A program made the position numbers and the translations under genes. A DNA stretch of 64,000 nucleotides from Maribellus sp. YY47 (lineage in GTDB: Bacteria > Bacteroidota > Bacteroidia > Bacteroidales > Prolixibacteraceae), in assembly GCF_023111095.1 (NCBI RefSeq), contig NZ_JALGYW010000002.1, positions 124,001 through 188,000 of the forward strand, written 5' to 3'. Under the pieces are notes generated by a model that did not search any database, had not been told where the DNA came from, and was given only the letters and a program-made list of their open reading frames with translations. Every line of letters begins with the position of its first letter. Positions within the stretch are counted from its first letter, which is position 1. Below, piece after piece: positions 5,393 to 22,528 of the stretch.

Positions 5393-7675
5393 TCACTTTT
5401 CATTTGAAAAAGAATACGGAAAATCTTTTTTCTCCACACCCCTGTTTTTATTCGGTGTTGAACTCATTTTAAAATTGATCACGGCTCCTTTCATCAAATC
5501 TTCGTGTGTCAGGTAGTTTTTGGTATAATTCTTCCCGTTCAGCTTCATTTCCGAAATGTATCGGTTCCCTTTTGAATTATTCCCGGCTTCAATCGAAATT
5601 TCCTTTCCGTTTTCAAGCTCGATTTTTACCGACTTAAACAAAGGTGATCCCAGGATGTACTCGTTGCTTCCCGGGCAAACCGAATAAAATCCAAGCGCCG
5701 AAAAAACATACCAAGCCGATGTTTGACCGTTGTCCTCGTCGCCGCAGTAGCCATCGGGAGTAGCAGCATAGAGTTTATCCATGATTTCGCGTGCCCAGTA
5801 CTGCGCTTTCCATGGTTCTCCTGCATAATTGTACATGTAAACCATGTGCTGAATAGGTTGGTTTCCGTGCGCGTACTGTCCCATGTCCATCACCTGCATT
5901 TCGCGCATTTCGTGAATCATACCACGGCTTTTCATGCCCTCCGATCCGGGAATAATGAAAACAGAATCGAGCATATTTACAAATTCCTTTTCGCCACCCA
6001 TCAAATCGATCAATCCCTTTGGATCGTGAAATACCGACCACGAATAATGCCAGCTGTTTCCTTCGGTAAAATCGCGGCTCCAGTCGGTAGGTGCAAACGA
6101 ATCGGAGAAAGAACCATCGGCAGCGCGTCCGGCCATCAATTTACGTTTTGCGTTGTAAACATTTTTGTAGTTCATGGCACGCTGCGCATAAATTCCGATC
6201 TCACTTTCGGGTTTGTTCAGCGCTTTTCCAAGGCGGTAAATGGTCCAGTCGTCGTAAGCATATTCCAACGTACGGGCCACGTTTTGGCTGATTCCCATAT
6301 CGTTCGGAATATAGCCGTATTGATTGTATTGCTCGTAACCGGTTCTGCCCGAAGCTGCTACAGTTGGATGCACATTGTTGGCTCCGTGTTTCAATGCCTC
6401 CCAAAGCGTTTCAATATCGTAACCACGCAAGCCTTTCAGGTAAGCATCGGCAACAACAGAAGCAGAGTTATTTCCCACCATAATGTTGCGGTGCCCCGGA
6501 CTAGCCCATTCAGGAAGAAAACCACTTTCCTTGTACGCATTTACGAGGCCTTCCTGCATTTTCTGGTTCTCCGAAGGATAAACAAAATTCAGGAAAGGGA
6601 ACAAACTGCGGAACGTATCCCAAAAGCCGGTGTCGGTAAACATGTAGCCAGGTAAAACTTTGCCATTGTAAGGGCTATAATGAATTACGTTTCCGCTGGC
6701 ATCGATCTCCGAAAGATTTCGCGGAAACAAAACAGTGCGATACAGATTGGAATAAAAGGTACGCAGGTTGTCGATGTTGTCATCTTCTACTTTAATTCGT
6801 CCCAGCACTTCGTTCCAGCGGGCTTTTCCTTTGGCAGCAATTTTATCCAAATCGTCGTTGCCCAGCTCTTTCAGGTTTAGCATCGCCTGTTCTTCACTGA
6901 TAAATGAGGAAGCCACCCGTGCATTCACCTGCTCGTTATTTGTGGTTGAAAAACCAATAATGGCACCGGCATGATTACCTTCAAATTCCTTTTCACCCTT
7001 CGTAATTTTGCCGTCTTTTACAGCAGCAAAATAAGTAAATGGCTTATCGAAAACGATAACAAAATAGTTCCTAAAATTATCAGGCACACCGCCGCTGTTT
7101 CGGGTTGTGTAACCTACAATCTTGTTTTCTTCGGGAATGATTTTCACATACGAACCGCGGTCGAAAGCATCGGTTACTACAAAAGAGTTTTTGCTGTCGG
7201 GGAAAGTAAAACGAAACATGGCTGCACGTTCTGTCGGTGCAATTTCTGTTGTTACATCCACATCGGCCAGGTAAACACTGTAGTAATACGGTTTGGCCAC
7301 TTCCGCCTTGTGCGAAAACCAGCTGGCACGCTCGTCTTCGTTAAAAACAGGTTCGCCGGTTAGCGGCATAATCGAAAACTGACCGTAATCGTTCATCCAT
7401 GGACTGGGCTGATGCGTTTGCTTGAATCCCCTGATTTTATCATCGGTATATTTGTACATCCAACCATCCCCCATTTTACCGGTTTGTGGCGACCAGAAGT
7501 TCATTCCCCAGGGCAAAGCTGTTGCCGGGTAAGTGTTTCCGGTTGAAAGTTCATACTTAGAATTCGTCCCCACCAGCGTACTTACATAGCTAACGGGATC
7601 AAAAGTCTGTGCGCTCAGCTTCAGGATAAAGCTGCAAAAAAGCAACGCACTTAAAAATCCAATTTTTTTAACCAT
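5393..7675 (-). CDS. GH92 family alpha-mannosidase
   Basis: A 760-aa exported protein with a type I signal peptide (cleavage after KLSAQ). The N-terminal beta-sandwich starts at VSYVSTLVGT and carries the family motif GMNFWSPQTG. The (alpha/alpha)6 domain holds EGNSWHYSW, a HGNQP motif and D646-E647-D648 in DEDNGQTSAW, the acidic calcium and base site of GH92. GH92 enzymes are calcium-dependent exo-alpha-mannosidases acting on alpha-1,2, 1,3, 1,4 or 1,6 linkages; the linkage cannot be read from sequence. The length is normal for the family. Together with GH76 it makes an endo/exo pair for alpha-mannan. It sits 67 bp downstream of the unassigned lipoprotein gene. Confidence 0.93.
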   Translation of the reverse strand: MVKKIGFLSALLFCSFILKLSAQTFDPVSYVSTLVGTNSKYELSTGNTYPATALPWGMNFWSPQTGKMGDGWMYKYTDDKIRGFKQTHQPSPWMNDYGQFSIMPLTGEPVFNEDERASWFSHKAEVAKPYYYSVYLADVDVTTEIAPTERAAMFRFTFPDSKNSFVVTDAFDRGSYVKIIPEENKIVGYTTRNSGGVPDNFRNYFVIVFDKPFTYFAAVKDGKITKGEKEFEGNHAGAIIGFSTTNNEQVNARVASSFISEEQAMLNLKELGNDDLDKIAAKGKARWNEVLGRIKVEDDNIDNLRTFYSNLYRTVLFPRNLSEIDASGNVIHYSPYNGKVLPGYMFTDTGFWDTFRSLFPFLNFVYPSENQKMQEGLVNAYKESGFLPEWASPGHRNIMVGNNSASVVADAYLKGLRGYDIETLWEALKHGANNVHPTVAASGRTGYEQYNQYGYIPNDMGISQNVARTLEYAYDDWTIYRLGKALNKPESEIGIYAQRAMNYKNVYNAKRKLMAGRAADGSFSDSFAPTDWSRDFTEGNSWHYSWSVFHDPKGLIDLMGGEKEFVNMLDSVFIIPGSEGMKSRGMIHEMREMQVMDMGQYAHGNQPIQHMVYMYNYAGEPWKAQYWAREIMDKLYAATPDGYCGDEDNGQTSAWYVFSALGFYSVCPGSNEYILGSPLFKSVKIELENGKEISIEAGNNSKGNRYISEMKLNGKNYTKNYLTHEDLMKGAVINFKMSSTPNKNRGVEKKDFPYSFSNEK

Positions 7676-7742
7676 CTTCTGTCTTCTCTTTATATCGTTT
7701 TTAATTTCAATTTATTTCTGATTCTCAATCCTATTAAGAAAG

Positions 7743-9944
7743 TTACCAACTCAACTTTACATGCACTCCATCCGGATTGTTTTCAAAACTCAGGAAGCAG
7801 GTTTTGCTGGCTTCATCCCACGAAGTATCTGCTTGTAAAAGATTACCGCTTGCATCCTTTACCTCCATTTTAACCGGTTTTTCGGGTAACAACACGCGCA
7901 TCACGTTGGTCGTATTCAAAGGACTTTTGGCCACAAACGAATAGTCATTTGATGTTCTGTTTTCGTCGTACACCCTGGCAGCAGTGGCCAGCACTTGCGG
8001 AGTTTCCGAATCTTCTACACTTCCGATATTGAACAGAAACGCCTGCTCACCGGAATTCACCTGTTTTTCATCCAAAACAGGAATTTCAGGATCAAACAGA
8101 TCGATCAGTTTTCCTTTGATCGTATACGGAGTTTGATCCGCATTTTCATCGACAACTGAAATAAGTTCATATGGTCCTCGTGTGAGTGCAAAAGAGTTTT
8201 TAAACTCAAGATCGCTGTCGGTTTCTTCTTTATACAAAGTATTTACGGTACTTATAAATTCGCTGTCGTTGTTTTCCTGCAGCACAAATTCCTTTGGATC
8301 GTTGCGTAGAATGCAAACTTTTCCTTTGCCGTGTTCAAACTCACCAGCCTTAAATGGTGCTTCCAAACCCATTTTCAAGAACAGGTCTTCGGAGGGCGCT
8401 TTAAAGTTATTTCCATTGGTATTCCACCACTCCTGTACACTCTGAAAAGCATCCTCGTCGCGGCCGCAGTACACCAGCACTCCGCCGTTTTTCACCCATT
8501 CGGCAATGTGGTCGTGTGCTGACTGGTCCATCGGTTTCATATTGGAATACGACATGATCAGCACTTTCACATCTTTCCATGTTTTTGCGAACGAAACGTT
8601 TTCGATATGAACGGTTTTTAGCGGAACGCCACGCTTTAAAAGGGGAAGTGCCTGCCCGTAAAAATTAGAGAGCTGCGGATCTTCATAACCGTTGTGCGTT
8701 GGGAAACGCTGGAACATCAGCGAATTCGACATCAACACTCCGATTCCCTGTGAACCGCTTACTTTGTTTTCCGACAAAGGCATGTTGTTCAGGGTGTTGA
8801 TCATTACCTGCATTTGTGTGGAATAAAAACGCGGAATACGTTCTTTCTCTTCGCTGTTGGCGCTGGTGCGGTAATAACCCTGGTAAATACGGTTGGGCCA
8901 AGGCATAACTTCGTAATCTGCAATCATCGGATACAAAAGCTGAGCTGTAAAAGTAGCCTGATAGTTCTTTTTGTAATCAGTCCAGTCGCGCGGCCAGTCC
9001 TCAATCGGGTCAGTCAGGAAAAACATTTTTCTTCCGGTGGGCGCAGTCATCGATTCCATGGAACCGTATTCCAGAAAGGCGGTTTCAAACACACGCTCTT
9101 TGGCTTTGCCGTTAAAATAGTTGGGTTCGCGCGAAGTGCCGGTCCAAACCTGGGCAATATAACCATCCACGCAAGGCAATGAAGCAAGGCTGGCTTCCGG
9201 GCTCACGATTTGCCACTGCGAATAATTTACCAGCGAATGCGTGGGAACGTAACAACGAACATTCATGCCTTTACTTTTCCCGTATTCTTTGGCGTAAGTA
9301 AAACATTCGTTCAAAGCCCTGTAGTATAGATGATATTTAAGTTTATTTGATAAATATGTATTCTCGGGAGACTCATGCTGAGGCCGCCAGTCGAATCCGT
9401 AATATTCTTTCCATTCCCGTTTAAAGGCATCGCTGTACCCCGAACGGGCCCAGAATTCGGGCTCTTCGAGAAAGATTGCATCAATACCTGCATCAATCAC
9501 GCGTTTAATCACTTTCTCCTTCATGTATTTTATGAAATTCATGGAAGGAATGATGTAGGGAACCATGTGACCATGCCAAATGGTGTCTCCACGTTGGGTT
9601 ACCTGCCCTTCGTCGAGATGCCATTTCCCGTCCCACTCGCCGGTAAAATAATCCTGGTATTCCCCCCAGGCAATCCCGGTCATAAAATGCGTGGTGTATC
9701 CACGGTCGCGCCACGACTGCACGCGTTCTTCGAAAGTCATGTTTCCTTTCTCGTGGTGGTCTTTTACGCTGTAAACAATTGCTACGTCTGCCCGCACATC
9801 GATGACGGGTTTCCACGGATTGGAAGTTTGAAAAGCTGTTTTCTCTTTGGGTTGATCAGGTTTCTTTTCTTCTTTTACCGAAGGCTGAGAACAAGCCTGA
9901 AAGATCAGTGCCGGCAAAAGGAAAAATAAGATCGATTTTCGCAT
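7743..9944 (-). CDS. Lipoprotein with TIM-barrel-like and GATase-like regions, function unknown
   Basis: The ORF is open from 10007, but the ATG at 9944 (733 aa) starts a clean lipoprotein signal with C18 in IFQAC and is preferred. Residues about 45-400 look like a clan A-type (beta/alpha)8 hydrolase barrel: WRDRGYTTHFM, a strand ending FLEEPEFW (E160, E161, E163) and the later strand YIAQVW. Residues about 400-500 resemble the Rossmann/GATase-like middle domain of GH42-type enzymes (VLIMSYSNM, then GGVLVYCGRD). A beta-rich C-terminal part follows. I cannot assign a named GH family. Its place between the DUF3823 and GH92 genes suggests a surface glycan hydrolase. E160, E161 and E163 are candidate catalytic residues by position only. 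Confidence 0.7.
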   Translation of the reverse strand: MRKSILFFLLPALIFQACSQPSVKEEKKPDQPKEKTAFQTSNPWKPVIDVRADVAIVYSVKDHHEKGNMTFEERVQSWRDRGYTTHFMTGIAWGEYQDYFTGEWDGKWHLDEGQVTQRGDTIWHGHMVPYIIPSMNFIKYMKEKVIKRVIDAGIDAIFLEEPEFWARSGYSDAFKREWKEYYGFDWRPQHESPENTYLSNKLKYHLYYRALNECFTYAKEYGKSKGMNVRCYVPTHSLVNYSQWQIVSPEASLASLPCVDGYIAQVWTGTSREPNYFNGKAKERVFETAFLEYGSMESMTAPTGRKMFFLTDPIEDWPRDWTDYKKNYQATFTAQLLYPMIADYEVMPWPNRIYQGYYRTSANSEEKERIPRFYSTQMQVMINTLNNMPLSENKVSGSQGIGVLMSNSLMFQRFPTHNGYEDPQLSNFYGQALPLLKRGVPLKTVHIENVSFAKTWKDVKVLIMSYSNMKPMDQSAHDHIAEWVKNGGVLVYCGRDEDAFQSVQEWWNTNGNNFKAPSEDLFLKMGLEAPFKAGEFEHGKGKVCILRNDPKEFVLQENNDSEFISTVNTLYKEETDSDLEFKNSFALTRGPYELISVVDENADQTPYTIKGKLIDLFDPEIPVLDEKQVNSGEQAFLFNIGSVEDSETPQVLATAARVYDENRTSNDYSFVAKSPLNTTNVMRVLLPEKPVKMEVKDASGNLLQADTSWDEASKTCFLSFENNPDGVHVKLSW

Positions 9945-10158
9945 TGGTATAGGTATTTTTGTCAAATGAATAAAATCATCCCTACTAAGATAAGCAGGGA
10001 TGACCAATTACAATAATCTATGATTCGCTTTCGGATGTTTATCCGATCAGCTTAATTAAAAATGAGTTCTCTGATTTTCAAAAACCAGATTCCTGTTCCA
10101 ATTTATTTGTGGTTTTAAAGCCACCCCCAAAACCGGTGACCTTAAACCACTTTCTTCC
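9945..10158. other. Intergenic gap after the DUF3823 gene
   Basis: A 214-bp gap between the Sus-type transport genes and the hydrolase genes. It contains AT-rich sequence and short imperfect palindromes but no ORF. It may hold a processing site or attenuator that separates the levels of transport and enzyme genes; I see no definite signal. Confidence 0.3.
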
Positions 10159-10974
10159 CTAAGGAATCATCACTTCTTTTGCTTCGTTGTAGTTCCATCT
10201 TCTGGTACCGCTTCCTTTCGGAGTATCGAAATTAATACGAGCGGCTGCACGGATAAATACGATTCTTCCTTCCGGAATTGTTCCGTTTGATTCGATGGTG
10301 ACGGTTTCTCCTAACAATGAACTGAATGCCGAACCTGAATATTCAATTTTGCTTGACCAGCGCTCGTCGCGGGCGCGGTAACCAACACTTGAAGAATAGC
10401 TCACAAAAAGCTGAATGTCGGTAACATTCAGGAAACTACTGTTGTAGCCGCCCATCGGTTCAATTTTGGCCTGGAAATCTGCCTCTGAAACCGCACGGGT
10501 AACACGCACTTTGGCTGTAATTTTCCCATTGCTTACCGTTGGTTCTTCTACCCATTCAATTTTCAGGAAAGGCTGCACTTCGAATCTTACTTTTGTAACA
10601 CCTTCAATATCCAGCGTTTGAGTTTCATCGGCGAGCGGAACTCCGCGTTCATCTTCACGAAGCAGCGGAATAAAAGGTCCGTCGATGAGAACGTTGTAGG
10701 TACCTTTAAACAATTTTGTGTTCTGGAATGTACCATCAGCCATGGCGTAGAAATCCGGATTGTGCGTTACATTGTCGCCCCAGCTGAGTTCGGTTAAACG
10801 TACACGGATACCTTCACTTCCCTGATCGGTAAGTACGGGTTCGCCGGTTGCTGCATCCACTACTTCACCTTGCAGAGTTTCTGCGGGTTCATCATAGTTA
10901 TCCATCTCAAAGATGCTGCACGAGCTAAAAGCAAACAACACAACCGATAATATATAAAATCCTATTTTTTTCAT
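10159..10974 (-). CDS. DUF3823 domain lipoprotein
   Basis: A 271-aa lipoprotein (signal ends FAFSSC, C19). The N-terminal half is an immunoglobulin-like or carboxypeptidase-regulatory-like sandwich (LQGEVVDAATGEPV; GTFQNTKLFKGTYNV), and the rest matches the DUF3823 C-terminal domain (VRFEVQPFLKIEW). Such proteins are typically encoded right after SusD and are surface-anchored partners of the SusCD complex, probably glycan-binding. Here the gene starts 35 bp after the SusD stop, so the two are almost certainly cotranscribed. Confidence 0.88.
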   Translation of the reverse strand: MKKIGFYILSVVLFAFSSCSIFEMDNYDEPAETLQGEVVDAATGEPVLTDQGSEGIRVRLTELSWGDNVTHNPDFYAMADGTFQNTKLFKGTYNVLIDGPFIPLLREDERGVPLADETQTLDIEGVTKVRFEVQPFLKIEWVEEPTVSNGKITAKVRVTRAVSEADFQAKIEPMGGYNSSFLNVTDIQLFVSYSSSVGYRARDERWSSKIEYSGSAFSSLLGETVTIESNGTIPEGRIVFIRAAARINFDTPKGSGTRRWNYNEAKEVMIP

Positions 10975-11009
10975 TTTCGATGTTCTTAATTGTTATTAAA
11001 CATTACTTA

Positions 11010-13067
11010 TTACCTGTTCGGTTGCTGATCAATTACCGGACTCTTCGTTACTTCACCACCCGGAATTGCAAAATAGTAATCAACAATATTGTATTCGAAC
11101 GTTTTCAGACTTACCCATTGGAAACGGGCATCGAAGAAATATTTTCCGGTTTCGGTTGAGAAGAACGGGTACAGACCGCGGAAACGGTAACGGGCATTGT
11201 TACTAAATGCATCTTTGTCTCTTTGCTCTCCCCAGAAACCGTCACGTCCTTCGTAGTGCTGAACTCTCCAGCGACGCAGGTCCCATTTTGTTTTGTGCTC
11301 CAGTGCTAGCTCTTTACGACGCTCTTTGCGAACGATGTTACGACTGGCTACATCTGAAGTAATGTTGCTGGTCAGTAATGTTGCTCCGGCACGCTCGCGA
11401 ATGTCGTTAACAGCGTCGGTAGCAACCTGCAACATGTTCGATCCGTCAGGCGATACTTCACCCGCCAACGACAATTCAACAGCTGCTTCCGCGGCATTCA
11501 GCAACACTTCAGCATAGCGCATCAGAACAAACGGTTGATCTGATTTACCTTCACCAGCTTCAAACGAAGGATCGGGATTCAAATATTTACGACCATACAA
11601 ACCGGTTAAACAACCTTCTCCGTTATCATAGAAAGGACCGTTAGCTCCGGCAGCTGTCATTTGAGCACCGTTGTATTCTACAGTTTCCTGGCTGTTACCT
11701 TCTCTCGGGCTTAAGTAAAGCGATTTCGGAGCCTGTTTGTAAGCATCCAGGTTTTGGTAACGGGTTTCAGCAGTTTGGTATGAATAATCATTAAACAGCG
11801 GCTGAACCGGACCTGCACCGGTATAAACTCCCGCACGGATCTCAATTTCTTTTCCTTTGAACATAGTACCCGGAAAAATTACATAGGCACGTAAACGAGG
11901 TTCAGCATCTTTGAAAAGATCTGTTGGGTTATCGTACATCAGGTAATTTCCGTTGGTGTTTGACGACCCGTCAGTTACTCTTAGTGTGCCGTCTTCGTAG
12001 CGATCAAAACCATCGTACAACTCCAGGAAATCAAGTGTTGGACAAGTTCCGGAAGCCAGAGGTGCTTTGAAAATAAACGGAGCGCTGTAGGCATCGTATC
12101 CGTGTGCTAAAGTAGGATAAGAATATTCTCTTACGTAAATATTTTCAGGGCTGGTCAGATCGCTGAACATATCTACCATATTTTGAGCCTGAGCATCAGG
12201 ATCGTTTGCTGCCCATTTTTTCATGTAAAGCGAATAATTACCACTTCTCATTACTTCCTGTGCAGCCAGGTACGCTTCTTTAAAGTATTTTTTAGAAGCT
12301 GACTCCCATGCGTCATCAGCAAAACCAATTACGCGAACACCTGTTTTCTCACCAAAACCGGTCAAACGACCTGTAACAGTTTCGTTGTATTTGGCAATGC
12401 TACCGGCATACAACATTGCTTCCGATTTAAATGACAATGCTACGTATTTGTTCGAGTATCCACTTTTAGGGCTGGTGGGTTGCAATAATTCTGCAGCCAT
12501 GTCGAAATCGGCCAGTACCTGATCCCAGGTTTCTTCTTCGGTTGCACGCGGCACTTCCAGTTCATCCTGATCTGCCGGATAAGGAATTACTTTTGTTACC
12601 AGCGGCACACCGCCAAAACGACGGGCCATTGCGTAAAATACGGTTGCACGCACAAAATAAGCTTCGCCCAAATAATGATTATAGGTTACTTCCGGAAATG
12701 AATTTTTATACTCCGGCAATGTTTCGAGCAGATAGTTGGCATCACGTAACAAAGTGAATGCTTTTCCCCAGTAAGGAGTGCGTTCGCTGGTAAAAGCAGA
12801 ACAAATTCCGTCGCGGTTCAGCGCCTCTCCGGTTCCTTCAATACCCAGAGCACCCAGCCAGGAGTTAAATTCAACTCCCCATTGAGCCATGTATTTGAAA
12901 TCTTCGAAAGGCATGTTACTGTACATCCGGGCCATGTAAATTTCCATCCCCGATTCAGTAGTCAGCAAATCATCGTCGCTAATGATGTTTTTGGGCGGAA
13001 TATCCAAGTCCGTACATGCGGAGAAGAACAATAAGCCGATCAGCGATAATATATATATTCTTTTCAT
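11010..13067 (-). CDS. RagB/SusD family outer-membrane lipoprotein
   Basis: A 685-aa lipoprotein (signal ends FFSAC, C18) with the all-helical SusD fold: an N-terminal TPR scaffold including EAYFVRATVFYAMARRFGG and VPYP-type motifs, a central region, and the SusD C-terminal signature (FVLMRYAEVLLNAAEAA; VRKERRKELALEHKTKWDLRRW). SusD proteins lid the SusC barrel on the cell surface and bind oligosaccharides for import. At 685 aa it is longer than the usual 500-600, with extra loops in the middle third. It follows SusC by 109 bp; that gap contains a perfect inverted repeat at 13109-13126. Confidence 0.95.
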   Translation of the reverse strand: MKRIYILSLIGLLFFSACTDLDIPPKNIISDDDLLTTESGMEIYMARMYSNMPFEDFKYMAQWGVEFNSWLGALGIEGTGEALNRDGICSAFTSERTPYWGKAFTLLRDANYLLETLPEYKNSFPEVTYNHYLGEAYFVRATVFYAMARRFGGVPLVTKVIPYPADQDELEVPRATEEETWDQVLADFDMAAELLQPTSPKSGYSNKYVALSFKSEAMLYAGSIAKYNETVTGRLTGFGEKTGVRVIGFADDAWESASKKYFKEAYLAAQEVMRSGNYSLYMKKWAANDPDAQAQNMVDMFSDLTSPENIYVREYSYPTLAHGYDAYSAPFIFKAPLASGTCPTLDFLELYDGFDRYEDGTLRVTDGSSNTNGNYLMYDNPTDLFKDAEPRLRAYVIFPGTMFKGKEIEIRAGVYTGAGPVQPLFNDYSYQTAETRYQNLDAYKQAPKSLYLSPREGNSQETVEYNGAQMTAAGANGPFYDNGEGCLTGLYGRKYLNPDPSFEAGEGKSDQPFVLMRYAEVLLNAAEAAVELSLAGEVSPDGSNMLQVATDAVNDIRERAGATLLTSNITSDVASRNIVRKERRKELALEHKTKWDLRRWRVQHYEGRDGFWGEQRDKDAFSNNARYRFRGLYPFFSTETGKYFFDARFQWVSLKTFEYNIVDYYFAIPGGEVTKSPVIDQQPNR

Positions 13068-13108
13068 TCGTTTATAATTGTTTATTTTTATGGTAACTCA
13101 TGTAACTC

Positions 13109-13126
13109 GTCCCGAGCACTCGGGAC
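13109..13126. repeat. Short palindrome between susC and susD (GTCCCGAG-CA-CTCGGGAC)
   Basis: An 8-bp perfect stem with a 2-base loop in the susC-susD gap, flanked by ACTCGT on both sides. The same TCCCGA/TCGGGA core returns at 54988-55005, so this looks like a dispersed palindrome family. In the mRNA it would form a stable hairpin that may stabilise the susC 3' end or lower readthrough; no U-run follows. Confidence 0.6.
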
Positions 13127-13176
13127 TCGTTTCATTTTGTAATCAAATTATGATTCATAAGTTCTTACAATAATTT

Positions 13177-16100
13177 TTAAAACGTTGCTGAAACGCCTAA
13201 CGTGAAAGTTTTGCTAAGCGGATACATTCGTCCCAAATCATCATCCGGATGTTCCGGATCTACAAATTTCACCCCGGTAATGGTAAACAGGTTATAAGCA
13301 TTGGCAAACACACGCAGATTCATTGATGGTAAGGCTTTTACCGTTGGCAGCGTGTAACCTAATTCAACGCTTTTCAAACGAAGGTAAGCTGTACTTACAC
13401 GGTTGAATTCTGAATTACTACGCGGATAGTTTCCGGTGTAACCGTAATAGCCACTCACCCATTCAGTTTCCGGATCGTAAGGATCAGCAGTTGGATCAAC
13501 CGGGTGCCAGCGATCGAGGTATTGAACCAGTGTACCACCACCGTTGCTACCCCAGATCGAGTAAAGCGGTTCTTTGTATTCCATTGAACCCAGTGCCGAT
13601 CCCTGGAAAAGCAGGTTCATGTCAAAATTTTTGTACGAACATTCGTAGTTCAAACTGAAGTTCAGCCACGGAGTCTGGTCGTAAGCAATCGGATGTTCAT
13701 CCAAACCGTCGATCTGACCGTCGCCGTTCCAGTCCAGATATTTGTAATCGCCCGGAAGGACGTTTCTTTCTTTGTATAATGAGTACGACCAGATATCGTC
13801 CCAGTTTTCAAAGCGACCGGCTGATTCATAACCAAATACAACTCCCTGGTAACGGTTGGTAAGATTGTCGTTACGCCACTGGTCGTAAGAGTTTCCGTAG
13901 GGCCCTTTTTCTGACGCAGTCATATATTTCTGACGGGTGATGGTTCCAATCGCTTTTACTTTGTATTGGAAATCGCCAATTTTATTTCGGTGAGAAAGTT
14001 CGAGATCCATACCGTAGTGACGGTCGCTATCCAGGTTTTCACGGGGAGCAGTAGCACCAACAACTGTAGGCAAATCGCCTGAACGACGGGCGAAACGGCC
14101 TTTTCTGCGACGATCGAAATAATCGAAAGAAAAGCCAAACAAACCATCCCAACCTTCAAAATCAACACCGAGGTCAAGCGTATGAGCAGTAAACCATGTA
14201 ATCAACTCGTTGGGCAATGCCAATGTTGAAACACCGTAAACAAACTCACTTCCAAACATATAACCCGGTGCATATTGGTTATAATATCCCTTTTCAGCGT
14301 TACCGCTCACAGCCGGATAAGTATAACCTGTTGCCCAATCGTATTGTAATTCACCATCGTCTCCCAGCACACCGTAACTGGCACGAAGCTTCAACTGATC
14401 AACAAACGACAAAGCTGAAACCGACTGAAAGAAAGATTCTTCCGATACACGCCAACCTACCGAAGCAGATGGGAAAAATCCCCATTGGTGACCTTTTGCA
14501 AACTTCGATGAACCGTCGTAACGGAACTGCACTTCGGCAATGTAACGATCAGCAAAGGCATAATTTGCTCTTCCGATCAATGCTGAGTTGGCAAGTTCGT
14601 AGATGTCATTCAAGCCACTTTGCATTCCGCCAAGCTGGTTTTCATCCACACCGGCAAAAAGATATTCCATACCAAAAGCCAGGTCACGTTGTGCATAAAA
14701 GTTATCACCGGTACGTTTCTGAGTTTCCCAACCCAAAAGTCCGCTTACTTTATGAAGATCATCGAAAGTATTGTTGTAGTTCAAAATGAATTGTCCCAAA
14801 ACCTGTTGTTTGCTGTACATCTCGCGACGAATCTGGTTGGGCGAACTTGAATTATACAATTTGGAATCGTAAGAATCTGTCAGCGGATTGTAAGCATACT
14901 GATAGTATTCTTTCCGGTAAATGTTGTTGTCGTCTTTGCGGTAGTCGTAACTAACCAAAGCTTTAGCCGATAAACCTTTCAAGGCTGACGACAATGTGCC
15001 AAAATCAAAATTCAACGCAGCTGAAGACTGAAAATATTTCTGGTTGTATTTACGGTAACCGGAAATATCAGAAGTCATTTTTGCCACTGTGTTTTCTTCC
15101 AGATCAAGGCCTTCGTAGTTTAGCATGGTGTTATCCGGATCGGCATAAGCAGGGTACAACACCCCTTGACGCCAGTAGTTACGGATAATATCCACTGGAC
15201 TTGAATAAGGATTATTACGTTGATCGTTGATACCGCTTAAGTTCAGATCAAGTTTCAATCCCTTTGCAATTTCAGTGCTGATGTTTGAACGCAGGTTGTA
15301 TTTATCGTAATTCAAATCACCTGACTTGAAGAAACCTTCCTGGTAAAAATATCCCATTGCAACGTAATACTGTGTTTTGTTCGTTCCACCGGTAATACTG
15401 ATATCATGCTGAGTTTGCGGCGAGTAATCAGAGAATAGCAGCGATGTCCAATCGGTAGTTCTGCGTGTTCCGTTGCGGTAGTCCTCAAAATCCTGTTCAT
15501 CATAAATGATGTTTCCACCATTGATGTTATTCATGGCCCTTTCGTTGTACAAGGTCATGGTTTCAAATGCATCAGCCAATACAGGCATTCCTGAAGGTTT
15601 CTGGAAAGTGAAAGAACCATTGTAAGAAACGGTTGTCTTCCCGTCGGTTGATCCTTTTTTGGTAGTAACCAGAACAACACCGTTTGCAGCACGCACCCCG
15701 TAAATAGCTGCAGAAGCATCTTTCAGTACCGATATATCTTCAATATCGTTAGAATTAAGGCGCTGAAACTCTGCTGTTGTACGTGGTACGCCATCAATTA
15801 CAACGAGCGGTGAACCTAAACCACGGATGTCGAAGTTGTTGTTAAACGCACCTGGTTCTGCACTTTTCTGCCACACTCGCACACCGGCAATTCTACCTGC
15901 CAACATGTTTTGCGGGTTTTCGTTTTTGGTTTGGCGCATTTCCTCACCTTTCACCCCGGCCACTGATCCGGTTAAAGTAACTTTCTTCTGTGTACCGTAA
16001 CCCACAATCACTACCTCATCAAGGCTTTGGGCATCAACTTCAAGTACAATATTAATTTTTGAACGAGAGTTAACGGCTTCTTCTTTTGTTGTATACCCCA

Positions 16101-16347
16101 GAAACTGAAATACCAGCATAGCATTTTGCGGTACATCAAGGGAATATTCTCCGCTAATATTCGTAATAGTTCCTACCGTGGTATTTTTAACAGCCACAGT
16201 CGCTCCAACAATCGGTTCGTTATTGTTATCTGTAACAATACCCGATACCGTGATATTTTGCGCCCATGAAGAAAAGGGCATAAAAATCACGATGAACACA
16301 ATCAGACGCAAAAACTGCGTAACTTTTGTATATCGACTTTGTATCAT
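13177..16347 (-). CDS. SusC/RagA family TonB-linked outer-membrane receptor
   Basis: A 1056-aa receptor. After the signal peptide (cleavage near SSWAQ) comes an N-terminal carboxypeptidase-regulatory-like domain (VSGIVTDNNNEPIVGA), the conserved DEVVIVGYG TonB-box region with TQKKVTLTGS, the plug (VVIDGVPR; ISVLKDASAAIYG; ANGVVLVTTKKG) and a 22-strand barrel ending in an aromatic residue (GVSATF), as expected for BAM-dependent assembly. It imports oligosaccharides with SusD using TonB energy. It lies 21 bp downstream of the GH76 gene. The length is normal for the family. Confidence 0.96.
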   Translation of the reverse strand: MIQSRYTKVTQFLRLIVFIVIFMPFSSWAQNITVSGIVTDNNNEPIVGATVAVKNTTVGTITNISGEYSLDVPQNAMLVFQFLGYTTKEEAVNSRSKINIVLEVDAQSLDEVVIVGYGTQKKVTLTGSVAGVKGEEMRQTKNENPQNMLAGRIAGVRVWQKSAEPGAFNNNFDIRGLGSPLVVIDGVPRTTAEFQRLNSNDIEDISVLKDASAAIYGVRAANGVVLVTTKKGSTDGKTTVSYNGSFTFQKPSGMPVLADAFETMTLYNERAMNNINGGNIIYDEQDFEDYRNGTRRTTDWTSLLFSDYSPQTQHDISITGGTNKTQYYVAMGYFYQEGFFKSGDLNYDKYNLRSNISTEIAKGLKLDLNLSGINDQRNNPYSSPVDIIRNYWRQGVLYPAYADPDNTMLNYEGLDLEENTVAKMTSDISGYRKYNQKYFQSSAALNFDFGTLSSALKGLSAKALVSYDYRKDDNNIYRKEYYQYAYNPLTDSYDSKLYNSSSPNQIRREMYSKQQVLGQFILNYNNTFDDLHKVSGLLGWETQKRTGDNFYAQRDLAFGMEYLFAGVDENQLGGMQSGLNDIYELANSALIGRANYAFADRYIAEVQFRYDGSSKFAKGHQWGFFPSASVGWRVSEESFFQSVSALSFVDQLKLRASYGVLGDDGELQYDWATGYTYPAVSGNAEKGYYNQYAPGYMFGSEFVYGVSTLALPNELITWFTAHTLDLGVDFEGWDGLFGFSFDYFDRRRKGRFARRSGDLPTVVGATAPRENLDSDRHYGMDLELSHRNKIGDFQYKVKAIGTITRQKYMTASEKGPYGNSYDQWRNDNLTNRYQGVVFGYESAGRFENWDDIWSYSLYKERNVLPGDYKYLDWNGDGQIDGLDEHPIAYDQTPWLNFSLNYECSYKNFDMNLLFQGSALGSMEYKEPLYSIWGSNGGGTLVQYLDRWHPVDPTADPYDPETEWVSGYYGYTGNYPRSNSEFNRVSTAYLRLKSVELGYTLPTVKALPSMNLRVFANAYNLFTITGVKFVDPEHPDDDLGRMYPLSKTFTLGVSATF

Positions 16348-16368
16348 AAGAATAAATGTTATTTGGTT

Positions 16369-17817
16369 TTATTTTTCCAGTTCATATCGTGCCAAAACCG
16401 CATACTCGGCTGCAAATGCGAAGTTGAACATCGCTTCGGTTTTGTTCTTCGAATTATCGTAACTCCAGCCAACCAGTAAGTTTGTTGGAAGGAAGCCGTT
16501 GTAAACGAAGTTGTCGTATCCGTAATCAAGGTTTTTCTGAAAGCTTTCAATGTACTCGCCTACATTTTCGTAAGCAGGATAAACATCCACGTAACCACGC
16601 ATCATTACACCGTTGAACCAGTTTCTGAAACCGCTGATATCATAAGAATAGTATCCCGGCTTCGTGCTGCCCAGCACAGCGAAATAGCTGAAACTTGCAT
16701 TCGACAATTTCGTGGCATCGTCCAGGTACAAATCGTCTCCGGTAACCTGAAACAAATCGGCAGCACCTGAAAGCATTGTCCCGGTGTTGTAAGTAATAGC
16801 CGGCCCAACACGATCACGACAAGTAATTCCTTTTCGGTAGGTTACTCCGTCAATCACTTCTGTTTGAGGATTTCCGGGAGCACAACCACCCATCATATCG
16901 TCATAAACACCATCAGAACGCAACAAATATTTCTTTTGCCAGTCATAAATTTTTTTGGCAAAATCCAGGTAATAGTCGCTTTTTTTCATCTGTACGGTTT
17001 TGCGTGTTTGCTTATCCGTAGCATCGATGTAACGATAGGTCAATTCGTCGCTTTTGTCTTTGTACAATTCATAGAGCCATACAAGCGGACTTACCATTGG
17101 TCCGTTACTGCACGAATGTTTTGTAACGTAACCCGGGCCCCAGGTTATACCTCCGATCTCGTCACCGTTGGCATCGCGGGTGCAATCCCATCCGTCAAGA
17201 ACATACTCCGTCAGGTATTCTGCGGTTTGCAAGTACTCGTTGTTGCCGGTTAGTTTATAAGCTTCGATAAGTTCACGAACCAACCACATTTGATCGTCAT
17301 AAACGTTTTCAATTCCTTCCACTTTAGCTGATCCTTTGGAAGATCCACGATTTACACCGTATACCGACCATTCTTTTGTCTGTGTATAGGAAACCAGTTC
17401 GAAAGTTCCGAGGTAGTACGCTGCGTTGTCGTACAGTTTGTAAAGCAACTCAGTGTAACGATTGAAATTCTGGTCATAAAGCTTGGATTCTCCACTGGCT
17501 TTTTCAGCTTTAAGTCCATGAAGTATAGCATTTACAGCTTCAATTGCACTGGTATACATCCAAATACTTCCCTTTTCCTCCGAACGAACGCCTGTGTAAG
17601 GATTGTAATAACGGGCCATAGCCATCCCATCTCCAGTGAAATGGGAAGCCACAGCAGCATCCGTCAGTTCCATAGCCCGAACAAGATTCTGTTCTGAAAG
17701 ACTAAGCTCGCCAACCGGCGGGTTGACAGGATCGTCGTCAGATCCCGTTTTGCTACAGGCAATTGTAATTAAAGGGATAAGGCAAGCAATAACAATTATT
17801 GTGCGAAAAAATCTCAT
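16369..17817 (-). CDS. GH76 family endo-alpha-1,6-mannanase-like lipoprotein
   Basis: A 482-aa lipoprotein (signal ends PLITIAC, C21). The (alpha/alpha)6 domain carries the GH76 signature YDDQMW with the paired aspartates D174 and D175 that act as nucleophile and acid/base in characterised members. Further motifs are WMYTSAIEA and GGCAPG. GH76 enzymes cut alpha-1,6-mannan backbones, and surface members start yeast-mannan breakdown. Lipidation and a spacer rich in Asp and Pro after the cysteine (DDDPVNPP) fit an outer-membrane surface location. It is encoded 11 bp after the leading lipoprotein gene and 21 bp before susC. Confidence 0.9.
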   Translation of the reverse strand: MRFFRTIIVIACLIPLITIACSKTGSDDDPVNPPVGELSLSEQNLVRAMELTDAAVASHFTGDGMAMARYYNPYTGVRSEEKGSIWMYTSAIEAVNAILHGLKAEKASGESKLYDQNFNRYTELLYKLYDNAAYYLGTFELVSYTQTKEWSVYGVNRGSSKGSAKVEGIENVYDDQMWLVRELIEAYKLTGNNEYLQTAEYLTEYVLDGWDCTRDANGDEIGGITWGPGYVTKHSCSNGPMVSPLVWLYELYKDKSDELTYRYIDATDKQTRKTVQMKKSDYYLDFAKKIYDWQKKYLLRSDGVYDDMMGGCAPGNPQTEVIDGVTYRKGITCRDRVGPAITYNTGTMLSGAADLFQVTGDDLYLDDATKLSNASFSYFAVLGSTKPGYYSYDISGFRNWFNGVMMRGYVDVYPAYENVGEYIESFQKNLDYGYDNFVYNGFLPTNLLVGWSYDNSKNKTEAMFNFAFAAEYAVLARYELEK

Positions 17818-17828
17818 TATATTATTTT

Positions 17829-19661
17829 TTAGTTCAAGTCAATAGTGTGGATAACCAGTTTGTTTTCGCCGGTATTGGCAGCACCGTTGTATACACCGAG
17901 GACGATGGTTACATTTTCGCCATTAAACTGCGACAAGTCGTATACAAACGAAGCATATCCTTCAGGATTACCGGCTCCACCGTCTCCGTGTTTGAATTTC
18001 CAGCAACCATCGTTGGCGGCACTTGCTTCCTGTGCAGTATTCGACTGCGGGGTAAGATGAGTAACCGTACCATTGTCCTGAATGGCTGTAATTTTGAAGA
18101 AAGTATAGTTGCTTCCGAAATTTCGTGTACTGAAAGTCAGCTGATTGTGACCCGAAGCAATCGAAAATTTCGCATATAGATATGATTCAGGCACCTTTGT
18201 ATCCACATCAGGTGTGTTACGTGTTTTGATAATGTAACCTTCAGAAGGGAACACTTCAGGGTCTTTTCTGAGCGGAACAAACGACCATTCAGCACCAACA
18301 TGGGCAACATCGCGCCAAGCATGATAAGCCACCGGGTATCCGTCTGACATGCTAACATTTCTTCCGGCACTGATAGGGCTAATGCCTGTGAATGAAGATT
18401 TTATATGAGGCATAGTAGAACGTGCCGTTTCAATCGACAGTTTCCAACCATCAACAACATCGGTACCCGGCAGCCAATCCCAGTTTTCTACTTTGCGATC
18501 AGCAAAACGGATAGCACGCAATACAAGTTGTTTCCAGTAATCGCCGGTTTGCTGACGGTAAATACCAACTGCGATGATCACTTCTTTTCCAACGTAATCA
18601 CTTAAATCGAAATCAAAATCGGTATAGTTGCCAGAGCCCCATGTTTTTGTATCTCCAACTTTAACGGCTGTTGGCTGTGCTGCAGAAAGGTCAATAACCT
18701 GTACACCGAAATAAGCTGGACTCGCTTCGTCTGCATTGTGCGTACGAATTCTGAGAGACATGATCTTGTTGTCTTCCGTGATCAATTTACTTCCGTAGGT
18801 GTAAGAATCGAACACATCAAGATCGGCAGGATTGCTGCGTTGATCTTCATCATTGCGAATACGCAAAGTAGTTCCTTCCCACTGTTCTTCCCAGTTACCC
18901 CAGAAAGTAAGTGAACACATATAGTCGCAGGCCCAGTCCCAGTGAGGATATGCATCAGCATTACCACCTCCGCGGTATTCGTTGTAGTACCATTTATCAG
19001 CACCCGAAAGATCGTCGGCAGTCAGGCCACGCAGTAATTCCTGTCCACCCATCTGAACATCCAGGCTAACTACACCGTCAACAAAATCATCTTTTACAAT
19101 TGCTTTGGTGATGGTTACATAATTTGCTTTTGTAAATGTGATGGTATAATCAGCAGCAACCATGTTTCCGATTTCGTATTTTCCGTCAGAACCACTTGTA
19201 GCAGAACCAGCCGGACCAACGCTAACAGTTACATCGGCAAGAGGTGTTCCGCCGTTTTTGGCATCGATAATAGTACCGGTAATTTTTGCAGAAGCGTTTA
19301 CCAGGGTCGCATTCGCGGCTACCACTTTATTGGCATCGAATTTTTCGGCGGTAACCGTTACGCTCACTGTTAACCAACCTTCTTTTGAGAATTTCACCGC
19401 ATGGGTTTTCATCGACACATTGTCAGCGGTATATGTTCCATCTGTACCGCTGGTTACCGTAATATCTTCTTCATTAACTCCCGAGATTGTAACGGTAACA
19501 TCCGAAACCGGAGTTCCGTCAGCATCGGTCACAGTGCCGACCACTGTACCGAAGCCGATATTTCCAGACTCGTCATCGTCCTGGCAGGAATTTACAGAGA
19601 ACAGAACTGTCCCCATTAAAGCAACGAACACAAAGGATCGTAAGATTTTAATTAGTTTCAT
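17829..19661 (-). CDS. Putative surface glycan-binding lipoprotein with two Ig-like repeats
   Basis: The ORF is open from 19724, but the ATG at 19661 (610 aa) begins the lipoprotein signal ending FSVNSC (C26) and is preferred. Two carboxypeptidase-regulatory-like repeats follow (VVGTVTDADGTPVSDVTV and ITGTIIDAKNGGTPLADVTV, about 80 residues each), a tandem stalk that lifts the rest from the membrane. The C-terminal 350 residues are beta-rich with many Trp and Asp (PHWDWACDYMC; FADRKVENWDW) and look like two jelly-roll carbohydrate-binding modules; an LRIR motif recurs. No catalytic motif is visible. As the first PUL gene, with GH76 11 bp downstream, it is probably the substrate-capturing protein. 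No named family is assigned to the C-terminal modules. Confidence 0.75.
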   Translation of the reverse strand: MKLIKILRSFVFVALMGTVLFSVNSCQDDDESGNIGFGTVVGTVTDADGTPVSDVTVTISGVNEEDITVTSGTDGTYTADNVSMKTHAVKFSKEGWLTVSVTVTAEKFDANKVVAANATLVNASAKITGTIIDAKNGGTPLADVTVSVGPAGSATSGSDGKYEIGNMVAADYTITFTKANYVTITKAIVKDDFVDGVVSLDVQMGGQELLRGLTADDLSGADKWYYNEYRGGGNADAYPHWDWACDYMCSLTFWGNWEEQWEGTTLRIRNDEDQRSNPADLDVFDSYTYGSKLITEDNKIMSLRIRTHNADEASPAYFGVQVIDLSAAQPTAVKVGDTKTWGSGNYTDFDFDLSDYVGKEVIIAVGIYRQQTGDYWKQLVLRAIRFADRKVENWDWLPGTDVVDGWKLSIETARSTMPHIKSSFTGISPISAGRNVSMSDGYPVAYHAWRDVAHVGAEWSFVPLRKDPEVFPSEGYIIKTRNTPDVDTKVPESYLYAKFSIASGHNQLTFSTRNFGSNYTFFKITAIQDNGTVTHLTPQSNTAQEASAANDGCWKFKHGDGGAGNPEGYASFVYDLSQFNGENVTIVLGVYNGAANTGENKLVIHTIDLN

Positions 19662-19772
19662 TGTAAGAATTACATTTAATAAGTTAAAAACACTGTTCAG
19701 TTCATTCGAACCTATTTGTTTCATTATGAATAGCAGTTCACAATCTGCACATGCTTTTTTTTAGAATTGCCG

Positions 19773-19780
19773 CAAATGTT
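19773..19780 (-). promoter_or_regulatory. Candidate -7 element of the PUL promoter (AACATTTG)
   Basis: On the minus strand AACATTTG matches the TAnnTTTG -7 consensus at seven of eight positions. It lies about 110 bp upstream of the first PUL gene, and the -33 position would fall on the phased repeats at 19791-19821, the layout expected for an activator that contacts the promoter directly. Confidence 0.35.
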
Positions 19781-19790
19781 GGAGAGGACT

Positions 19791-19821
19791 GGTTAAAATA
19801 TGGGTTAAAACAGGGTTAATT
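19791..19821. promoter_or_regulatory. Three phased direct repeats, candidate PUL operator
   Basis: GGTTAAAA at 19791-19798, GGTTAAAA at 19803-19810 and GGTTAATT at 19814-19821 are spaced 12 and 11 bp start to start, so they fall on nearly the same face of the helix. They lie in the divergent spacer between the PUL operon and the winged-helix regulator gene. OmpR-type winged helices usually bind direct repeats with about 10-11 bp pitch, so this is the best candidate site for the neighbouring regulator. Confidence 0.5.
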
Positions 19822-19902
19822 TTCAGAAAATATTATTAATCATTCCGGTAATTTCCAATTTATCCGGATGGAACAACTGTAACATTTTTGACCAGAATTG
19901 CA

Positions 19903-20017: not shown

Positions 20018-22528
20018 ATGCTGACATCAATTAAACTGTACATACTCTTATTGTTTACTCTTCTCAGTGTTCAAAAATCATTCTTGGGAGGCTTAAAGTT
20101 TAGCGGAGGAGAACAACCCATTGACAAGAGAACCTCCTACGATGTCTTTGGTAACAATGCTGTAGCTTTTTCTGACTCCTTTAATATTGAATTTGGCTTA
20201 GCGCTTTACCCCACTAACCCGATCGGATATATTATCCGAATCAAAAACACTGAAAACAACAGGATATACAATCTCTTTTACGACGGGCAGGGCAGCAACC
20301 TTTCCTTCAAGTTTAACGAGGAAGGGAAAAGTAACCTGATCACCGCCAACATGGACAAGGAGGAACTCTTGAATATGAACTGGTTCAAAATGAAACTTTC
20401 GTTCGATCTGAAAAACGATTCCATTAAGTTGACCATTCATAACAAAACATTTTCCATAGGCCATGCCGATCTTCCCGATCCGTACTATCCTGTTGTACTT
20501 TTTGGGAAAAGCGACTTTATTATCGATGTTCCAACTTTTGCCATTAAAGATCTTTCGATAGGAAATAAAGAGAAATATATGTTTCCGCTAAACGAAAATG
20601 AAGGGAATGTAGTCCACGACGATAAAGGGAAAGATGTGGGAATAGTGTCCAACCCGGAATGGCTTATTAACGACGCTTATCATTGGAGATATCAAACATC
20701 CTTTAAATCAAAATCCGTAGCCGGTGCGAACTATAACCCGGACAAAAAGGAGATTTACTATTTTAACCGCGACTCTCTAATTATTTATAACGTAAGATCG
20801 AACAACACCCAAACGCAAACATTTGAAGAGAAATGCCCCGTTGAGCTTATTTTAGGGACCAACTTCCTTGAACCGACCAACAATAAATTGTACTCCTACG
20901 AAGTATTCTTTGAAGACACCGCTTACAAAGGTGCCACTGTCGCCAGCCTGAATCTGGATACGTACAAGTGGACCGGTGAAAGTCAGGATCAATTACCTAC
21001 TCAGCTGCATCATCACGGCTCTTATTTTGATTCATCGACCGGAAAGTACACGATATTCGGTGGTTTTGGAAGTATGCATTACTGCAGGAGTTTTTTCTCG
21101 TATGATTTGAACGACAAAACATGGAATAAACTTGACGAATTCTCCGGCGATTTTCTGTCTCCCCGCTATTTTTCATCAGTAGGGTATCTCAAAAAGACCA
21201 ACTCTATTTACATTTTTGGAGGTATGGGAAACGAATCGGGCGAACAAATTGTTGGACGAAAATATTACTACGATCTCTACCAGGTTGATTTAACGACACG
21301 AAACATTTCAAAACGCTGGAAAATTCAGTGGGATAAAGATAACGTGGTTCCGGTTAGAGGAATGGTGATATTGGATGATTCCTGTTTTTATACCTTATGC
21401 TACCCGGAACATTTTTCTGCCTCTTTCCTGAAATTGTACCGTTTTTCACTGGCCGATGGCAGTTATGAGATTTTGGGAGACTCCATTCCAATCCGCTCTG
21501 ACAAGATTACAACCAATGCCAATATCTATTACGATGCAGGCCTTAATAATTTATACGCCACTGTTCAGGAGTTTGATGACGATATTTCATCTACGCTAAA
21601 AGTTTATTCTTTGGCGTTTCCCCCCATTACCGCACAAGAATTAAAAAGCTTTTCAAAAGGTAAGAACAACAATACAAGCACTTTTTTACTGGTAATAATT
21701 GCCGGATGTGCTGCCGGAGCCGGCTATCTTTTGTATAAAAAACGAAAACATAATGTCACCCAGGAAGATGTTTCAACATTAACTGAGCCTGAAAAAGAAG
21801 TTAAAATAAAAACCACATCGAAGGCGAATGCAATCTATCTGTTTGGCGATTTTGAGGTACGCGACCGAAGAAACAAGGATATAACTTACATGTTCAGTGC
21901 AAAACTCAAACAAACATTTTGTCTGATCATGCAGTATAGTGCGGAAGGCGATGGAATCACTTCTCAGCGTCTAAGCGATGTTTTATGGCCGGGCAGACCC
22001 ACCGATAAGGTTAAAAACTCACGGGGAGTTACCATCAATCATTTGCGAAAAGTACTGGAAGAGCTGGATGGAATTGAATTAATTTACGAGAAAGGCTGTT
22101 TTAAGATTGTAGCTAACCCAGCACTGTATTGTGATTACACCCGGTGTATTGAGATAATTTCTGCTGAAAATGTGGAAGAATACAGAGATGAATTGGTGTC
22201 GATTGTTGTTCGTGGAAAGTTTTTGAAATCGTCCGATCATCAGCTTTACGATACCTTTAAAGAGACCGTTGAACAAAAGCTGGAACCGGTATTATTAATT
22301 GAGTTGGGTAAATGCTTCGAGGCAGAATTTTACCAGACAACCGTTAGCATTGCTGATGCAATATTTAGTATCGACCCATTGAATGATGTTGCATTGGCTT
22401 ATTTGATCAAGGCCATGCAAAGGATGAAAATGAATGAAGAAGCACAAATCAGGTATCAATCATTTGTTATTGAATACAAGAAAATAATGGGGAATAAATA
22501 CCCGCATTCGTACCAAAATCTAAGCTAA
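20018..22528 (+). CDS. Membrane-spanning regulator: LamG-like and Kelch sensor, TM helix, winged helix, TPR tail
   Basis: An 836-aa protein, divergent from the PUL. Residues 1-24 are a signal peptide or N-terminal anchor; about 30-180 resemble a concanavalin/LamG jelly roll (SFNIEFGLALYP; WFKMKLSFDL); about 225-540 are Kelch-like propeller repeats (YTIFGGFG at 344-351, IYIFGGMGN at 397-405). A single transmembrane helix spans about 556-573, followed by a basic KKRKH stop-transfer. The cytoplasmic part has an OmpR/BTAD-type winged helix at about 605-700 (LFGDFEVRDR; LSDVLWPGR; SRGVTINHLRKVL) and a helical TPR-like tail at 740-836. I infer that it senses a glycan in the periplasm and controls the adjacent PUL directly, without kinase or anti-sigma partner. 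Its exact ligand is unknown. Confidence 0.82.
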   Translation: MLTSIKLYILLLFTLLSVQKSFLGGLKFSGGEQPIDKRTSYDVFGNNAVAFSDSFNIEFGLALYPTNPIGYIIRIKNTENNRIYNLFYDGQGSNLSFKFNEEGKSNLITANMDKEELLNMNWFKMKLSFDLKNDSIKLTIHNKTFSIGHADLPDPYYPVVLFGKSDFIIDVPTFAIKDLSIGNKEKYMFPLNENEGNVVHDDKGKDVGIVSNPEWLINDAYHWRYQTSFKSKSVAGANYNPDKKEIYYFNRDSLIIYNVRSNNTQTQTFEEKCPVELILGTNFLEPTNNKLYSYEVFFEDTAYKGATVASLNLDTYKWTGESQDQLPTQLHHHGSYFDSSTGKYTIFGGFGSMHYCRSFFSYDLNDKTWNKLDEFSGDFLSPRYFSSVGYLKKTNSIYIFGGMGNESGEQIVGRKYYYDLYQVDLTTRNISKRWKIQWDKDNVVPVRGMVILDDSCFYTLCYPEHFSASFLKLYRFSLADGSYEILGDSIPIRSDKITTNANIYYDAGLNNLYATVQEFDDDISSTLKVYSLAFPPITAQELKSFSKGKNNNTSTFLLVIIAGCAAGAGYLLYKKRKHNVTQEDVSTLTEPEKEVKIKTTSKANAIYLFGDFEVRDRRNKDITYMFSAKLKQTFCLIMQYSAEGDGITSQRLSDVLWPGRPTDKVKNSRGVTINHLRKVLEELDGIELIYEKGCFKIVANPALYCDYTRCIEIISAENVEEYRDELVSIVVRGKFLKSSDHQLYDTFKETVEQKLEPVLLIELGKCFEAEFYQTTVSIADAIFSIDPLNDVALAYLIKAMQRMKMNEEAQIRYQSFVIEYKKIMGNKYPHSYQNLS

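Follow-up and report, generated by a model that had tools for sequence, protein, structure and literature searches.

The window analysed here, a stretch of 64,000 nucleotides from Maribellus sp. YY47 (contig NZ_JALGYW010000002.1, positions 124,001 to 188,000), contains at 20018-22528 on the plus strand a single intact open reading frame for a protein of 836 amino acid residues. According to domain searches and structure models, the protein consists of an all-beta domain, a Kelch propeller, a transmembrane (TM) helix and a C-terminal tail with the predicted make-up of a SARP-type winged helix (wHTH) and BTAD domain. Divergent from it, as a preliminary description of this DNA had stated, lies a PUL on the minus strand. 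The first PUL gene (17829-19724) codes for a 631-aa CarboxypepD_reg protein (Pfam). It is followed by genes for a GH76 protein of the alpha-mannanase family (16369-17817; PF03663, 2e-18), SusC (13177-16347; TIGR04056, 5e-247), SusD (11010-13067; PF07980, 1e-35), a DUF3823 protein (10159-10974; PF12866), a conserved protein of about 753 aa without a Pfam or NCBIfam match (7743-10007) and a GH92 protein of the alpha-mannosidase family (5393-7675; PF07971, 2e-169).

The regulator gene and the divergent PUL are separated by a gap of 293 bp. A pattern search located in it an operator-like array in which GGTTA occurs three times as a direct repeat, at spacings of 12 and 11 bp (19791-19818, plus strand). 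Past the array, sequence inspection revealed an inverted copy at 19835-19841 on the minus strand, which reads ATTAATC on the plus strand. The box AACATTTG stands on the PUL strand (19773-19780, minus strand); 10 bp separate it from the last repeat. The -7 consensus of Bacteroidota is TAnnTTTG; we take the box to be close to it and call it -7-like for this likeness. The array covers the -33 region of the PUL promoter. In the 5.04-Mb genome of strain YY47, the exact array pattern has a single match, located in this gap.

Sensor half and membrane topology

The protein starts with a hydrophobic, signal-peptide-like stretch of about residues 1-24 (20018-20089, plus strand like all features of this gene; hydropathy), in which a typical cleavage motif was not seen by eye. 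The following domain, about residues 26-215 (20093-20662), is all-beta: the AF2 model shows strands throughout these approximately 190 leading residues. Next comes a Kelch propeller of about residues 224-540 (20687-21637; Pfam, Foldseek). The Kelch-like repeats recognized in the preliminary description were confirmed by a match to the Kelch model PF24681 that exceeds the cut-off of the model (E = 1.8e-15), and the same model was matched in 67 of 67 relatives (Pfam, E<=0.1). The AF2 model of the sensor half (residues 22-545) has a pLDDT of 93.0, and Kelch propellers were its top matches in the PDB among the best 50 of 441 Foldseek matches at E<=0.001. A fold match of this model to the sialidase NanB was set aside as support (TM 0.27, rmsd 21).

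The LamG-like domain initially assigned to the outer part was not confirmed. Laminin-G models were touched by 2 of the 67 relatives with a best E of 0.08 (Pfam), an earlier Pfam scan of relatives had yielded 2 of 21 (best E 0.053), and when the profile of the N-terminal domain was compared with LamG domains from sister proteins, the probability was 1.9%. On these Pfam and profile results, the LamG label was rejected as a claim for the window protein; a resemblance remains unproven.

The single TM helix comprises residues 554-572 (21677-21733; hydropathy) and is directly followed by the residues KKRK. Topology and signal peptides were read with a crude hydropathy cut-off in 41 members of the family: a hydrophobic segment stands immediately N-terminal to the tail module in all 41, and an N-terminal hydrophobic stretch exceeds the cut-off in 26, the window protein included. 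By hydropathy, the Kelch part is not cytoplasmic, and the sensor is predicted to be periplasmic. Neither Pfam nor NCBIfam reported a kinase, receiver, sigma, anti-sigma or AraC domain in the window protein. A single TM helix, an exported Kelch part and the lack of a kinase, receiver or anti-sigma part had all been proposed before and agree with these results.

The C-terminal module and its family

The tail comprises a predicted winged helix (about residues 604-699, 21827-22114) and a BTAD-type helical part (about residues 706-835, 22133-22522). Residues 590-836 were modelled by AF2 from an input of 68 sequences with a pLDDT of 93.7. AfsR and EmbR were the sole PDB entries found for the tail model by Foldseek at E<=0.001, with six chains, a probability of 1.00 and TM values between 0.56 and 0.63 relative to the model. 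When the C-termini of 68 relatives were compared with Pfam one by one (E<=0.1), BTAD was matched in 20 (best 5.5e-6) and Trans_reg_C in 7 (best 3e-4). The window tail by itself scored below the curated Pfam cut-off for BTAD (E 0.051; 14.4 bits vs 22.1), and for the full-length window protein a wHTH match was absent from the Pfam results. The tail profile did not find the OmpR winged helices of the YY47 genome at E<=10, and a profile-profile comparison with them gave 49%; against solved structures, the one match of the tail profile below E 0.01 was to designed TPR proteins only. The sequence evidence for a winged helix, taken alone, is weak, and for this reason the fold comparison was needed. 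The AfsR-like order, with a BTAD-type helical domain after the winged helix, is present in the window protein by fold, and by sequence at the level of the whole family only. In the 68 aligned tails, K77, R80 and R88 are invariant, and N, R and G residues are conserved around the third helix. On the basis of the model, we assign the window tail to the SARP type, with BTAD behind the winged helix. The preliminary description had named an OmpR/BTAD-type winged helix at 605-700 with a TPR-like tail; the winged helix and the helical tail are backed by AF2, Foldseek and family-wide profiles, while the SARP-type wHTH-BTAD takes the place of a bare OmpR domain.

Four members of the family are encoded in the YY47 genome (genome search), and one or more in 33 of 61 genomes (YY47 and related genomes). 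In a phylum sample to be read as a lower bound, with seven candidates scored for most genomes, the tail profile was matched in at least 23 of 395 genomes at E<=1e-6; several of these 23 matches have other architectures. A search of named genomes, of which the best 80 of 95 results were retained, yielded 78 loci in Maribellus, Draconibacterium, Labilibaculum, Dysgonomonas, Bacteroides, Alistipes, Sphingobacterium, Algoriphagus, Echinicola, Chryseolinea and other genera. Three main groups were distinguished: Kelch class Ia, which includes the window protein; Kelch class Ib, whose members are 24-26% identical to the window protein; and a LamG-sensor group, in which Laminin_G_3 is found in the outer part of 17 of 17 members (E<=0.1). 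Since the LamG-sensor group bears the same tail as the Kelch classes, the sensor varies and the tail is constant.

Other arrangements occur as well. Short wHTH-BTAD proteins are encoded in some genomes, for example at the loci L193 (364 aa) and L194 (271 aa). At L194 (G362:C1:1160500-1179500, 7349-11073), the gene for an 869-aa membrane member is followed by that for the 271-aa protein, which has no TM segment, and the space separating these two regulator genes contains GRTTA arrays, suggesting a regulatory cascade. The 963-aa protein at L205 (G432:C1:355000-374000, 7281-10172) shows the reversed order, with a wHTH-BTAD-like part at residues 8-222, a hydrophobic segment near residue 316 and a long C-terminal part; a SusC gene is located nearby.

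Kelch-class homologues across Bacteroidota stand mostly at alpha-mannan PULs. In class Ia, SusC/D genes are present within 10 kb of the regulator at 51 of 62 loci, GH76 or GH92 genes at 53 and either kind at 58; the loci without a PUL gene at this distance are L097, L099, L103 and L113. In class Ib, PUL genes lie within 10 kb at 14 of 15 loci, SusC is the divergent neighbour at 14 and GH92 is found within 10 kb at 11. The YY47 genome holds 41 SusC genes over the cut-off in 5.04 Mb, so that, by our estimate, no more than about one random position in five would have a SusC gene 10 kb away or nearer. The divergence of the regulators correlates with that of SusC, with a Mantel r of 0.41 for 43 class-Ia loci and 0.71 for 57 Kelch loci (0 of 2000 permutations each), both values being uncorrected for shared species descent. 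The approximately 753-aa protein encoded at 7743-10007 in the window occurs within 10 kb of the regulator at 41 of the 62 class-Ia loci and is a candidate new component of mannan PULs.

In the LamG-sensor group, SusC/D was found within 10 kb at 1 of 17 loci despite the same or related genomes, a count that includes some short contigs and uses SusC/SusD models built from Kelch-class neighbours. This count and a non-PUL operon at locus L057 led to the rejection of the statement that every homologue regulates a PUL. The linkage foreseen for the homologues thus holds for the Kelch classes, and the superfamily is wider than PULs. At L057 (G000:C48:28500-48400, 12422-18225), the only locus of the LamG class with Pfam annotation, a LamG-sensor regulator is divergent from an operon for a NapC-cytochrome/FGE-sulfatase fusion, a GFO_IDH_MocA protein, a GT2 and a PMT-like protein. 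Genes of similar size stand beside other main LamG-class members. In a third group (L058, L075 and L077; L058 at G000:C11:53500-73400, 11310-16010), the regulator gene is followed by genes for a GFO_IDH_MocA protein and a 3-keto-disaccharide hydrolase/HEAT protein of approximately 1130 aa, neighbours that suggest a 3-keto-sugar pathway.

The operator-like array across loci

The pattern GRTTA-N6-7-GRTTA-N6-7-GRTTA was searched in 79 loci with 1.66 Mb of sequence, the window included. It gave 54 matches, corresponding to 47 arrays in 43 of the 79 loci, all of them between open reading frames; three Markov simulations gave 0 matches. A reversed control pattern had 48 matches in about 266 Mb, summed among the matches listed, from which about 0.3 matches are expected in 1.66 Mb. 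By our count, 41 of the 47 arrays adjoin a labelled PUL gene and lie on the strand opposite to that gene. Where the PUL gene is downstream on the plus strand (L112, L113, L115 and L117), the array is accordingly on the minus strand. The remaining six arrays are those of L099, L127, L128, L134 and L139 (two); among these, the arrays of L099 and L139 do not adjoin a labelled PUL gene. In 35 of the 47 cases, the array is followed at a distance of 17-20 nt by the inverted element TAAYC. For 22 of 47 arrays, TTTG is found on the PUL strand at a distance of 12-20 nt beyond the last repeat; two windows of similar size further along contain it in 2 and 4 of 47 cases. With TTTG, CTTG, TTTA or TTGT the count at 12-20 nt rises to 41 of 47, the two control values referring to TTTG alone.

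A loose form of the repeat pattern was rejected as a genome-wide marker: it is present in 42 of 61 relatives and in 142 of 395 phylum genomes, and many of its genome-wide matches are short tandem repeats of coding look. Since the pattern is this common elsewhere (142 of 395 genomes), position and spacing carry weight rather than presence.

At 21 class-Ia loci the array was absent from the stretch first fetched, often because the PUL ran past the end of the stretch. Whole genomes were searched for 19 of these loci (all except L091 and L103). In 17 of the 19, the array was located directly upstream of the first PUL gene, that of the CarboxypepD_reg protein, on the contig of the regulator but beyond the locus in 14 genomes and on another contig in 3; among the 19, no array near the PUL was found at L083 and L137. 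Some of the 19 genomes hold further, unrelated matches to the pattern.

The exact pattern was found in none of the 15 class-Ib loci; their gaps contain conserved TTAAT or ATTAA words 10-11 bp apart. The gaps of the main LamG group contain conserved TTA words in steps of 11 and about 22-23 bp. By eye, no array was evident in the gaps of L058, L075 and L077 of the LamG class, and these three were excluded from the self-spacing test. In all three groups (Ia, Ib and LamG), a lag of 11 was the strongest self-spacing of TTA, GTTA and TTAA. The TTA counts at lag 11 were 73 vs 32.7 simulated, 31 vs 10.4 and 50 vs 10.1 (36, 11 and 14 gaps, respectively).

A 2024 paper on AfsR describes SARP promoters in which direct repeats are 11 or 22 bp apart and 8 bp separate the 3' repeat from the -10 element (PMC10936776), and a review gives classical SARP sites as 11-bp (PMC10972967). 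The predicted site in the window, with its direct repeats next to the -7-like box, has this layout. Because the tail matches AfsR and EmbR and the repeats have the 11-bp spacing of SARP promoters, fold and operator layout agree independently.

Mode of action and relation to known regulators

Domain make-up, hydropathy topology, the SARP fold match, genomic linkage and the conserved array with SARP-like spacing were computed in this analysis. With a probability of about three in four, the window protein is a membrane-tethered one-component activator of the SARP type, with a periplasmic sensor and with tails that sit on the 11-bp repeats and recruit the polymerase to the divergent PUL. The periplasmic all-beta/Kelch region probably senses alpha-mannan-derived oligosaccharides, a ligand suggested by the GH76 and GH92 neighbours. 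Once a mannan fragment is bound, the single TM helix would relay the signal and bring or orient the tails together. We infer that the tails bind the array and that they activate rather than repress: after this ligand-driven pairing or reorientation, two or more (two or three) tails would be lined up next to each other along the 11-bp direct repeats (19791-19818). Placed at the -33 region, 10 bp from the -7-like box, they would recruit RNA polymerase to the divergent PUL.

Topology alone is compatible with either sign of control, and a protein bound to repeats that cover the -33 region could also block the promoter. Yet the position of the array corresponds to that described for SARP activators in the AfsR paper (PMC10936776), and we consider it unlikely that the protein acts as a repressor released by the ligand, or is freed by proteolysis, in place of a tethered activator. 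Somewhat less probable still is a membrane-bound regulator that leaves the array to another protein, such as a soluble SARP-type factor, and itself acts elsewhere or by protein contact. The short wHTH-BTAD proteins at L193 and L194 would fit such a reader, as would the genomes whose array is distant from the regulator, be it on the regulator's contig (14) or on another one (3). On the other hand, the spacing of the array suits the SARP fold of the protein itself, arrays with this period also occur in the divergent gaps of two further classes of the superfamily, and the single match of the YY47 genome falls in the gap of this very protein. It is very improbable, finally, that the C-terminal module has lost DNA binding and that the protein travels with the PUL as a component of the envelope with a sugar-binding or mutarotase-like function. 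Such a role would accord with the weak wHTH scores of single sequences and with a weak Pfam match of the window protein to the Kelch family of the NANM epimerase, which is under the family cut-off (E 6e-4). The high-confidence SARP fold, the invariant K77, R80 and R88 with the conserved residues around the third helix, and the retention of the tail in sister proteins with a different outer part argue against it.

The proposed tethered SARP-type activator can be compared with several known systems. SARPs, activators of antibiotic genes, are soluble proteins with an N-terminal SARP module. The window protein shares with SARPs such as AfsR, DnrI and ActII-ORF4, and with their fold relative EmbR, the wHTH-BTAD fold and direct repeats 11 or 22 bp apart near a -10/-7 box. 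Unlike theirs, its module is placed at the C-terminus, after a Kelch sensor and a TM helix, occurs in Bacteroidota at PULs and has marginal sequence similarity. Regulators of the ToxR/CadC type have an N-terminal winged helix, a C-terminal periplasmic sensor and no known BTAD. As in these, one TM helix joins sensor and winged helix, but the domain order of the window protein is reversed.

SusR-like proteins are described as membrane-anchored regulators, with SusR sensing maltose in the periplasm, and their predicted boxes have centres 67 or 77 bp apart (PMC3878776). Membrane anchoring, periplasmic sensing and control of SusC/SusD loci would be common to both, whereas the window array has a period of 11-12 bp. 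SusR-like proteins are marked by a DNA-binding domain at the C-terminus that is homologous to SusR; the tail profile had no match at E<=10 to one DUF6377 protein of the YY47 genome, which we take to be SusR-like. Both kinds of membrane PUL regulator, SusR-like and SARP-type, may coexist in this genome. The DUF6377 protein, of 560 aa at L229 (G000:C9; DUF6377 at 81699-82463), adjoins a SusC gene. For alpha-mannan, loci of Bacteroides thetaiotaomicron are reported to encode HTCSs (BT2628, BT3786), and the HTCS sites given in the same source come as a pair, each of 16 bp, with 5 bp in between (PMC3878776). The window protein resembles HTCSs in its large periplasmic sensor, its predicted control of a PUL and, for these two, the same predicted substrate; it differs in the lack of kinase, receiver and AraC domains and in the layout of its site. 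In a 2024 review on hemicellulase genes, HTCSs, ECF-sigma/anti-sigma pairs and catabolite repression are listed as the common systems (PMC10766802).

A distinct class of one-component transmembrane PUL regulators, as inferred in the preliminary description, is supported by the winged helix, the PUL linkage, the hydropathy and the array, and none of the three outcomes named there as refuting it was obtained. As an idea, PUL regulation by a one-component membrane protein has a precedent, because SusR-like proteins are already described as membrane-anchored (PMC3878776); the variant here would be a SARP tail on a membrane one-component sensor. A Kelch or SARP-type PUL regulator was not found in the literature searched, whose coverage excluded preprints and most subscription journals, and the absence of such a regulator from print is weakly tested. 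It is quite likely that these proteins form a so far undescribed superfamily of SARP regulators in Bacteroidota: tethered to the membrane, they would share a wHTH-BTAD tail and differ in outer sensors that can be exchanged (Kelch, LamG and others), and each class would read a TTA array of its own with an 11-bp period. Its Kelch class, specialised for alpha-mannan, would add another type of PUL switch anchored in the membrane to the SusR-like proteins and HTCSs. A SARP DNA-binding module appears here as a membrane-bound sugar switch in another phylum, together with a predicted operator. This provides a regulator and predicted binding sites for PULs where annotation of HTCS, ECF-sigma or SusR would find none, and a kinase-free sensor design in one chain, whose outer domain appears to be naturally exchanged.
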